DNA of 28,219 bases from a virus, in the IMG/VR virus record IMGVR_UViG_3300023109_000096, positions 1 to 28,219 of that record; one strand, written 5' to 3'. A program made the translations under genes and the position numbers. This document shows, in pieces, positions 19,363 to 22,705 of the stretch (its first letter is position 1; every line of letters starts with the position of its first letter). A model generated the notes under the pieces. The model did no database searches. It saw only the letters and a list, made by a program, of their open reading frames with translations, and was not told the DNA's origin.

Positions 19363-20319
19363 ATGCTTTATCCACAATATCCAATATATATTATTTCCAA
19401 GGGTAGATGGGATAGTCGTATGACACAACGTACCATGGAAGACTTAGGTCTGCCATACAGAATTGTAATTGAAGAATCAGAATATGATAAGTATGCAGAA
19501 AATGTCCCTAAGGAAAAAATTCTGACACTTCCAACTGGTTTTCGTGATAATCCATTATACGCAATACCAGATGAAAAAACTGGTTTGATTGGTGGGTCAA
19601 TTCCAGTCCGTAATTTTGTTTGGGAACATTCTAAATCAGAGGGTCACGATCGACATTGGATTCTAGATGATAACATGCGACACATTTACAGACTGCATCA
19701 AAACAAAAAGATCAGAATGAATACTGGTTCTGGTTTTCGTATCATTGAGGACTTTGTTAACAGATATGAAAATGTAAGACTTGCCGGTATGAATTATGCA
19801 TTCTTTTGTCCTGCAATGACAAAACGGCCACCATATTACACTAACACTAGAATCTACTCTTGTATTCTTATTGATAATTCACTACAGTACCGCTGGCGTG
19901 GTAGATATAATGAAGATACAGATTTATCGCTACGTGTTCTAAAAGATGGTGATAACTGCACAATGTTATTTAATAACTTCCTAGTCGGTAAAGCGGCCAC
20001 AATGACAATGAAAGGTGGTAATACCGAAGAAGTTTACAACATTGATCAAGTTGGCGACCGTAGACACAGAGATGGATCTAGCTTTGATAATCGTAAAGAA
20101 TTTGCAGATTCATTGGTATCACAACACCCAGATGTTGTTAAACTAGCCTTTAAATGGGGCCGTTGGCATCATGACGTGGACTATTCAGTTTTTATTCAAA
20201 AACCGACAAAGAAATCAGGTCTAAATATTAAACGTGGTGTTAATGAATACGGAATGAAATTAGGAGAAATTTCGCCAGACGAAGGTGATGGTGAAGGAGA
20301 TGAAAACTATGGCGACTAA
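19363..20319 (+). CDS. TET-associated-type glycosyltransferase (GT-A-like)
   Basis: This 318-residue protein opens with YIISKGRWDSR, followed by a Rossmann-like segment (YRIVIEESEYDKYAE). It then has PVRNFVWEHSKSEG and HWILDDN, a DxN/DxD-like nucleotide-sugar and metal site (102-104). Further on is RGRYNEDTDLSLRVLKDG with an acidic pair (183-187). This order matches phage glycosyltransferases named TET-associated, found beside oxygenases that oxidise DNA bases and thought to glycosylate hydroxylated bases. The acidic, Gly-rich C-terminus (DEGDGEGDENYGD) is a tail. GGAG lies eight bases before the ATG. DNA as the acceptor is inference; the family call is from memory of the motif order. Confidence 0.7.
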   Translation: MLYPQYPIYIISKGRWDSRMTQRTMEDLGLPYRIVIEESEYDKYAENVPKEKILTLPTGFRDNPLYAIPDEKTGLIGGSIPVRNFVWEHSKSEGHDRHWILDDNMRHIYRLHQNKKIRMNTGSGFRIIEDFVNRYENVRLAGMNYAFFCPAMTKRPPYYTNTRIYSCILIDNSLQYRWRGRYNEDTDLSLRVLKDGDNCTMLFNNFLVGKAATMTMKGGNTEEVYNIDQVGDRRHRDGSSFDNRKEFADSLVSQHPDVVKLAFKWGRWHHDVDYSVFIQKPTKKSGLNIKRGVNEYGMKLGEISPDEGDGEGDENYGD

Positions 20320-20590
20320 TAAAAACAATGTAGATAATGTATCAAATAATCTTTTTATCCTATCCGGTGATGAGGATGAAAGAACACCTTATGATTGGGA
20401 TGACATGCCAGCTTTTGAACAACAACAGAAAGAAGATATTAAAATTATTGTGCGGTTTAAAACACAACAAGATGTAAGAGACTTTGCAGCTGCAATTGGT
20501 CAGAATAATATTACAGATCGCACAAAATCAATTTGGTATCCAGCACTAGATAAAAATCGTAACTCACTACTCCGTTGGATGGATGAATGA
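20309..20590 (+). CDS. Conserved small protein coupled to the glycosyltransferase
   Basis: I choose ATG 20309 (93 residues) because AAGGAG at 20294-20299 is nine bases upstream; earlier in-frame ATGs overlap that site. It overlaps the preceding gene by 11 bases. The N-terminal ~40 residues are polar and probably disordered. The C-terminal ~50 form a compact alpha/beta unit: IKIIVRFKTQQDVRDFAAAI, then TDRTKSIWYPAL and LLRWMDE. Phage proteins with a similar strand, helix and [KR]S[IL]WYP element are known to me, but I cannot name a function. The tight coupling to glycosyltransferases on both sides suggests a partner role. Confidence 0.65.
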   Translation: MATNKNNVDNVSNNLFILSGDEDERTPYDWDDMPAFEQQQKEDIKIIVRFKTQQDVRDFAAAIGQNNITDRTKSIWYPALDKNRNSLLRWMDE

Positions 20591-21759
20591 ATGTTTTTAT
20601 TATACCTTACTCATTTCACACTTTTTTCCAATATGAAAAACGTGTAAGTGGTGTTGATGAGGCATTACTAAAACAAATTGATGTTTTAAGAGAAATGGGC
20701 CATACGGTAGAAGTTTATATACCGTTTGGTAATTTGCATGAGCATCTAGCCGGCATTCACTATTTTAAAGATCATGTCCCAGATGAAGGTATAAAATCAT
20801 ATTTAAGAAAACAAAAAAATAAAAATGAAATCCTAAAAGACATACTAATTAGGATGATTAAATTTAAACCAGATGTGATTTTATCTAATGCATATTTTCA
20901 GAAAAAACTTTATGGTGAATTACAAAAAATGGATTCTCCAGTTGTTTATATGTCACATGCAATACCTGGTTTCTTTACAGATGTTGTAAGTGCAAATGAA
21001 TTAGGTAGTTTTATTGAATGCAATAATATTATTGCAGTATCCGATTATCATTCAAAAAGATTTAAAAAATATTATGAAAGAAGAAGAAAAGGCTGGACAT
21101 TTAAAAATGATATTGATGCCGATTCAGTTGTTTTTTCATCATATAGTTCCTTAGAAGATGTACAAGAATCCGATGGTGTTGTGAGACACGTTTCGGCGGC
21201 ACATAAGGAAAAACAAACATTTTTAATTCACGATATGCTAAGTGAAACCGAAATAAAATCCGAGGTATATACTACACTTGGGTTTATGGCAAAAGATAAA
21301 CTAAAAGATGCATATGTGAAAAAAGCATTTGAAAAATATGGTGAAGGAGACCGAAAAATATTTTTGGATGTAGATCACAAAGATATTATGGAAAAAATCA
21401 AAACCGCAAGTTGTTGCTTTGTTGGACTTGCATCATATGATACCTTTACCATTACTTCATTGGAATCTCTTTCACGAGGAGTTCCTATCATTGTGAAAGG
21501 TTATAAGGATTGGCATCCTGCAAAAGAAATGTTGGAACCAGAATACCAAAAATATGTACACATCTATAAAAATAAAGCAGATTTTATAGATAAGGTAAAG
21601 GAATTTTCTAATCTTACATTAGCCGAAAGAAAACAAATTGCACAATCATGTTACAATGTAACTTCAAAAAAGCAATACGGTATTAGTTTAGAATCTGCGC
21701 TAAATAAATCTATAATAAAATACAAAGAAAAAACAAAAAACTGTTTATTTTTCCAGTGA
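20587..21759 (+). CDS. GT-B-fold glycosyltransferase (GT4-like)
   Basis: This 390-residue protein starts inside the previous stop (ATGA). The N-terminal half opens with VFIIPYSFHTFFQYEKRVSG and GVDEALLKQIDVLREMGHTV, the usual acceptor-domain layout. IAVSDYHSKRF marks the domain linker. The C-terminal donor-binding region contains ASYDTFTITSLESLSRGVPI followed by IVKGYKDW, which corresponds to the E-x7-E/[EG]xP motif of GT4 enzymes, although the first acidic position is Asp here. It lacks a membrane segment. It likely transfers a sugar from a nucleotide donor; donor and acceptor are unknown. Its last codons contain the -35 and spacer of the next promoter. Confidence 0.75.
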   Translation: MNVFIIPYSFHTFFQYEKRVSGVDEALLKQIDVLREMGHTVEVYIPFGNLHEHLAGIHYFKDHVPDEGIKSYLRKQKNKNEILKDILIRMIKFKPDVILSNAYFQKKLYGELQKMDSPVVYMSHAIPGFFTDVVSANELGSFIECNNIIAVSDYHSKRFKKYYERRRKGWTFKNDIDADSVVFSSYSSLEDVQESDGVVRHVSAAHKEKQTFLIHDMLSETEIKSEVYTTLGFMAKDKLKDAYVKKAFEKYGEGDRKIFLDVDHKDIMEKIKTASCCFVGLASYDTFTITSLESLSRGVPIIVKGYKDWHPAKEMLEPEYQKYVHIYKNKADFIDKVKEFSNLTLAERKQIAQSCYNVTSKKQYGISLESALNKSIIKYKEKTKNCLFFQ

Positions 21760-21772
21760 TTTGTATTATAAT
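21744..21772 (+). promoter_or_regulatory. Early-type promoter positioned for a leaderless mRNA
   Basis: The -35 TTTATT (21744-21749), 17 bases and the -10 TATAAT (21767-21772) are followed after only six bases by the ATG of the next gene. The usual start point, about seven bases after the -10, falls on that ATG. No ribosome binding site is present. Confidence 0.75.
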
Positions 21773-21778
21773 ATACCT

Positions 21779-22705
21779 ATGATCAAATTAACAATATTTA
21801 ATAGTCTGTTTGACAATAAAACACATAAACGACTTGAGTTATCCGACTTCGACTCGTTTGAAAAATTCTTATATAAGCTTTCCGAAGAACCTAAGGCTAA
21901 TAAGAAAGATGCAGTACTTATATCTCCTGCGACATACCGACCGGATACCACTAGGGCAAACACAAATGTCATAGAATGGTCCGGTTGGTGTTGTGTTGAT
22001 GTAGATGAATATGAAACAACAGGAGACTTGAATGCTGATTTATGTGATCGTTTTTCTAATTATAGGTTCATTTGTTACAGCACTGCAAGCAGTACAGTGG
22101 ATACGCCTAAGTTCAGAATGGTGTTCCCTTTGCGAAGATCAATTGGACAAGAAGAAATTAGACACTTCTGGTTTGCTCTTAACAGAGAACTTGGAGAGCT
22201 CGGTGATGCTCAAACTAAAGACCTATCACGCATGTACTATATCCCTGCAAAATATTCTGGCGCTTTCAACTTTATTTTCAGTCATGATGGGAGTTCAATT
22301 AACCCTGATGATCTTATGAGGAAACATCCCTATGCCGAAAAAGCCAACCTCAATAACTTCTTCGACAGACTCCCGGAAGAACTCCAAAAACAAATCATCG
22401 AACACAGAAAAGGAGGAATGGATAACACTAATGTGGTGTGGTCGTCCTATCGCGATTGTCCCTTCTTCCCTCGTAAACTCGAAGCAGAATACCGCCTCAT
22501 TTCAAATACCGGATGGTACCACAAAATGTACCAAATAATGGTTGCCATTGCCGGTAATGCAGTAAAACAAAAATATCCAATTACAGCCAATGAGATTGCA
22601 AAATTGTGTCAAGCACTGGATATGGAAACTGGTAATTGGTATAAAAACAGACCACTCGATAAAGAAGCAGATAGAGCTCTCGAGTACGTCTATAAAAATA
22701 TGTAA
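21779..22705 (+). CDS. PrimPol/AEP primase-like protein
   Basis: This 308-residue protein resembles the archaeo-eukaryotic primase-like domain of phage and plasmid primases. SGWCCVDVDEYE provides the metal-binding D74-x-D76. RFICYSTASSTVDTPKFRMV follows, where related proteins usually have a His in the sxH motif (YTTHSH); here the equivalent is S-T-A-S. Then come FPLRRSI and KDLSRMYYIPAKY, the usual [PT]SRxxYxP element. Residues ~195-308 form a helical C-terminal part without helicase motifs. T4-like phages already carry a gp41/gp61 primosome, so a second primase-like protein is unexpected. It may be inactive or have another role. The start ATG is leaderless as described for its promoter. Confidence 0.65.
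   Translation: MIKLTIFNSLFDNKTHKRLELSDFDSFEKFLYKLSEEPKANKKDAVLISPATYRPDTTRANTNVIEWSGWCCVDVDEYETTGDLNADLCDRFSNYRFICYSTASSTVDTPKFRMVFPLRRSIGQEEIRHFWFALNRELGELGDAQTKDLSRMYYIPAKYSGAFNFIFSHDGSSINPDDLMRKHPYAEKANLNNFFDRLPEELQKQIIEHRKGGMDNTNVVWSSYRDCPFFPRKLEAEYRLISNTGWYHKMYQIMVAIAGNAVKQKYPITANEIAKLCQALDMETGNWYKNRPLDKEADRALEYVYKNM

Follow-up and report, generated by a model that had tools for sequence, protein, structure and literature searches.

We analyzed a window of 28,219 nucleotides, corresponding to the viral record IMGVR_UViG_3300023109_000096, and our results indicate that its PrimPol-like (AEP) primase gene is very probably transcribed from its own sigma70-type promoter, starting at A21779, and that the resulting leaderless mRNA would be translated as such, this being the best explanation for the comparative sequence evidence presented below. 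Messages of this kind are familiar from some bacteria and from a few phage genes, with lambda cI as the standard phage case, and the primase gene appears to belong to this known class. For leaderless genes of bacteria, the accepted hallmark is a -10 box lying some 10-12 bp ahead of the start codon (PMC3160421), and on such messages 70S ribosomes bind the 5'-terminal AUG, a codon strongly preferred in E. coli (PMC9031893). On this basis, transcription from A21779 followed by leaderless translation is the most likely route: RNA polymerase would begin the transcript on the first base of the ATG (21779, within 1 nt), so that the mRNA has AUG at its very 5' end, and the ribosome would be expected to bind this terminal codon directly, as on known leaderless mRNAs. 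As in the bacterial and phage cases, the -10 element lies one helical turn before the AUG, no Shine-Dalgarno (SD) sequence is present, and the start is expected on the A; unlike them, the gene considered here is a replication gene of a lytic T4-like phage, from a lineage whose other genes carry strong SDs, and its 5' end, promoter activity during infection and initiation by 70S ribosomes are what we infer from the layout.

The promoter elements and the gene are all encoded on the + strand. The -10 element TATAAT (21767-21772) is preceded by a weak -35-like element, TTTATT (21744-21749), placed 17 bp from it and kept in relatives, usually as TTTACA or TTGACA. Direct reading confirmed the coordinates given in the preliminary description, with TATAAT ending at 21772 and the ATG (21779-21781) following after the six bases ATACCT, so that the A of the ATG, our predicted transcription start, is the 7th base after TATAAT. 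It also bore out the reported absence of an SD sequence, as no AGGA, GGAG or GAGG was found upstream of the primase ATG. The upstream neighbor is a glycosyltransferase-like gene (20587-21759, +) whose stop codon TGA (21757-21759) falls inside the -35/-10 spacer; the primase promoter therefore overlaps the 3' end of this gene, and 19 nt separate stop and ATG. The primase gene itself (21779-22705) comprises 308 codons, and its predicted product begins MIKLTIF (MYELTLF in phage C48C1). The next in-frame ATG is codon 114, in agreement with the earlier reading, which had overlooked an in-frame TTG (21761-21763, +). This TTG was rejected as a start, for it lies inside the promoter, ahead of where transcription is expected to begin, and its use would extend the protein by 6 residues that are absent in relatives. 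Homologues align from residue 2-4 on, with Vibrio phage proteins among them starting at residue 2, and thus 21779 is the correct start. A folded 5' end was likewise discarded, the first 50 nt being structured no more than shuffled sequences (z 0.27). Within the window, an exact TATAAT 5-7 nt before the start was found for 1 of 42 gene starts, vs 0.20 expected from shuffling, a count that taken alone is only suggestive evidence against chance. The remaining gene promoters of the window are located 15-30 nt from their ATG, each with an SD, which upholds for this window the earlier statement that all other promoters leave a leader with a ribosome binding site; it does not extend to the lineage, where 14 gene families share the short layout.

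Relatives of the primase were fetched from IMG/VR and their start regions were read, resulting in 124 distinct proteins. In 22 of these, a sigma70-type promoter was found with its -10 element ending 5-8 nt before the ATG, and none of the 22 displayed an SD; a further 99 fell into a class coupled to the preceding gene, with an SD-like word in 35 of them, and the remaining 3 were either SD-led or cut by the contig end. One coupled locus (L096) also has a TATAAT 8 nt before the ATG. Loci obtained by a pattern scan did not enter the unbiased counts, since such a pattern by its nature picks leaderless cases; without them, 13 homologues had the leaderless layout, 98 were coupled and 3 were otherwise arranged. 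An own promoter combined with an SD leader was not found among the 124 primase homologues. The leaderless-layout homologues share 47-99% identity with the window protein, include phage C48C1 as well as deep branches, and have an upstream gene that differs from locus to locus. Because the promoter lies so close to the ATG and this spacing is kept in distant relatives, the primase is probably translated without a ribosome-binding leader, and we consider the conservation of spacing to be the decisive evidence for a real feature. On the tree, the trait requires around 12 changes, of which well-supported branches force at least 7; this ruled out the leaderless state as the mark of a single clade. 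The layout is well supported, by these comparisons, as a conserved and repeatedly switched feature of this phage lineage.

In the coupled class, the upstream gene is usually MazG-like, and in 33 of the 57 coupled loci with a detectable promoter it starts 5-9 nt after the -10 element, so the same type of start may sit one gene upstream; as a caution, many of these loci carry TGGAG in the spacer, which could serve as an SD on longer transcripts. In L005, L041, L131, L135, L167, L177 and others, where PrimPol overlaps an upstream MazG-like gene, the start of that gene, some 400 nt ahead of PrimPol, is found 5-7 nt past a -10 element, and in close relatives of those loci the MazG-like gene has a leader with an SD (TGGAGATATAAATG).

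The distances between promoters and start codons were then considered over the fetched loci, defining a strong promoter as an exact TATAAT with a -35 element matching at least 5 of 6 positions and a 16-18 bp spacer, and taking the first ATG within the longest ORF downstream as the end point. For all strong promoters in the loci fetched at that stage, the distances were bimodal: gaps of 5, 6 and 7 nt occurred 17, 47 and 18 times, in no case with an SD, few cases lay at 13-16 nt, and a broad hump followed at 17-40 nt, mostly with an SD; the mode was 6 nt. The short peak persisted when the PrimPol and pattern-selected loci were removed (10, 23 and 15 cases at 5, 6 and 7 nt). We did not include distances of 9-12 nt in the leaderless class because several of these cases have a second ATG behind an SD. 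The short class depends on the -35 element, as it comprised 64 of 469 TATAAT sequences with a -35 vs 4 of 721 without it (Fisher 1e-22, a value to be read with the non-independence of homologues in mind). Across loci, the start codons at 5-7 nt were ATG in 64 cases, TTG in 7 and GTG in 1. Furthermore, in leadered promoters the pyrimidine-purine step most commonly has its purine at position 7 after TATAAT (69/145), and when the gap is 6 nt in the leaderless layout, position 7 coincides with the A of the start codon and position 6 is always a pyrimidine. The spacing in 22 homologues, the two distance classes and the initiator placed on the A together lend strong support to the leaderless mRNA originally predicted for this gene.

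Regarding the encoded protein, it matches the phage DNA primase family phrog_9765 (1.3e-48), and a search of PDB sequences returned nothing significant. An AlphaFold model built from 50 homologues of the window and IMG/VR (pLDDT 90) had a single PDB fold match below an E-value of 0.001, the AEP domain of the cyanophage S-2L PrimPol (6zp9; E 1.8e-4, probability 1.00). The predicted model thus displays the AEP fold of AEP/PrimPol primases, which agrees with the PrimPol-like label previously assigned; although S-2L PrimPol is its best fold match, the sequence identity is 9% and the window protein has an extra C-terminal helical part. Residues D74 and D76 (VDVDE) are invariant in the 50 homologues and constitute a putative active-site acidic pair. 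Nearby genes are of T4-type replication functions, namely gp43, gp44, gp45, gp46, gp47, gp62, RegA, UvsX and gp55, and the closest named isolate by both primase and polymerase is phage C48C1 (Kyanoviridae), for which our literature search found no paper. In the first 150 kb of C48C1 (L256-L258), the PrimPol-like gene is the sole gene annotated as DNA primase; since no other primase is annotated there, this lineage may use the AEP primase in place of the DnaG-type gp61.

Besides the primase, at least one leaderless-layout start was found in each of a total of 14 protein families in the fetched loci, including PrimPol, gp43 polymerase, MazG-like, TET-associated glycosyltransferase, D12-class DNA methyltransferase, gp46, gp62 and gp41. 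C48C1 harbors four cases, corresponding to the polymerase (ATG at 30980), the methyltransferase (33486), the primase (34380) and a lysozyme-like gene whose -35 is weak. No exact TATAAT at 5-7 nt was detected in T4 (100 kb), Syn9 (100 kb), S-SM2 (38 kb) or HTVC008M (100 kb), whose promoter counts are, however, small. The gp43 polymerase gene has its -10 element 5-7 nt before the ATG in C48C1 (L256 30967-30982) and in L090, L092, L102, L104, L111, L127, L145, L148, L149, L153 and L228; at this distance a T4-type leader operator for gp43 would not fit in those loci. The polymerase gene of the window has a leader with an SD, and so does its TET-associated glycosyltransferase gene (19363-20319), related to DNA modification; the latter family shows the leaderless layout in 6 of the 11 relatives found behind a strong promoter. 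A leaderless gene in L092 was considered as RegA and rejected, as its counterpart in the window (13282-13659) encodes the clamp-loader subunit gp62.

With these observations, we tentatively propose, as a possibility that we hold with less than even confidence, that in this marine T4-like lineage replication and DNA-modification genes (primase, gp43 polymerase, MazG-like, DNA methyltransferase, TET-associated glycosyltransferase, and occasionally gp62, gp46 and gp41) are repeatedly leaderless, which would free them of leader repressors such as the gp43 operator and RegA, and of SD-dependent competition, and make them a translationally distinct class during infection. The window primase resembles the gp61/gp43-type early and middle genes of T4 in genomic neighborhood, functions and the presence of a RegA homologue, but those genes have leaders with SDs and with RegA and gp43 operators, whereas the primase is of the AEP/PrimPol type and would lack a leader, so that leader operators could not exist on its transcript. 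If the leaderless state of core replication genes is confirmed, the control of T4-type replication proteins, classically exerted via the leader by RegA and the gp43 operator, must differ in the marine group. Among searchable papers, we found no report of leaderless mRNAs for core replication genes in lytic T4-like phages.

A more specific proposal, additional to leaderless transcription and raised for RegA in the preliminary description, is that the function of the leaderless start would be to evade repression acting through leaders (RegA or gp43-type operators). The window encodes a RegA homologue (13646-14056, +; PF01818 4.3e-44, phrog_242); in T4, the sites of RegA span the AUG or are placed directly 5' of it and contain an A-rich 5' tract, and the operator for gp43 is a hairpin located ahead of the start (PMC3014915). 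Thus, by analogy with T4, escape is plausible, as a leaderless message would be without the 5' part of RegA sites, with the AUG-proximal part remaining, and gp43 itself adopts the layout in several relatives. However, RegA might still recognize the AUG together with the bases after it, many relatives retain leaders on the same genes, and compact gene packing could account for the layout; we regard this purpose as rather unlikely.

Two further explanations concern the transcript itself, and to each we assign a low probability. The primase could be expressed mainly by readthrough of the upstream operon and reinitiation after the glycosyltransferase stop, the TATAAT promoter being minor; the ATG lies only 19 nt past that stop, which makes readthrough transcripts with reinitiation possible, and most relatives overlap their upstream gene, often without an SD. 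Nevertheless, no SD is available for reinitiation, and promoter and spacing are kept despite differing upstream genes; some readthrough from upstream genes probably also occurs alongside the leaderless transcription that we favor. Alternatively, the promoter could be real with transcription starting a few bases off the ATG, resulting in a leader of 1-5 nt or in an AUG partly removed, as start-site choice varies by about 1-2 nt and the spacing in relatives goes from 5 to 8 nt; however, the 6-nt mode and the conserved pyrimidine just before the A put the start on the A, and a leader of few nucleotides would act much like a leaderless one. It is very improbable that TATAAT is a chance match in an AT-rich genome (36% GC; 80 consensus matches found vs 65 expected) or part of a T4-type late promoter, given that it is conserved together with the -35 in many relatives and that TATAATATA differs from TATAAATA, which occurs only at 2607 and 13473; the late promoter, having TATAAATA at -10 and no -35, was rejected for the sequence TATTATAATATA found here.

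Leaderless transcription of the primase and related genes would also bear on annotation and on comparative studies, as gene callers that score SDs may mis-set starts in this lineage, and the switching of the same gene among leaderless, leadered and overlapping starts offers a natural series for comparing these modes. In C48C1 (L256 33474-33488), the annotated methyltransferase start (33480) is directly after TATAAT, and an ATG at 33486 lies 6 nt after the -10 element; the annotation may be 2 codons too long because this ATG fits a leaderless start. In the Pelagibacter phage HTVC008M (L264 20952-20971), the primase belongs to a different family (phrog_47), and two overlapping TATAAT sequences end 11 and 4 nt before its ATG with no SD, an arrangement consistent with a very short leader.
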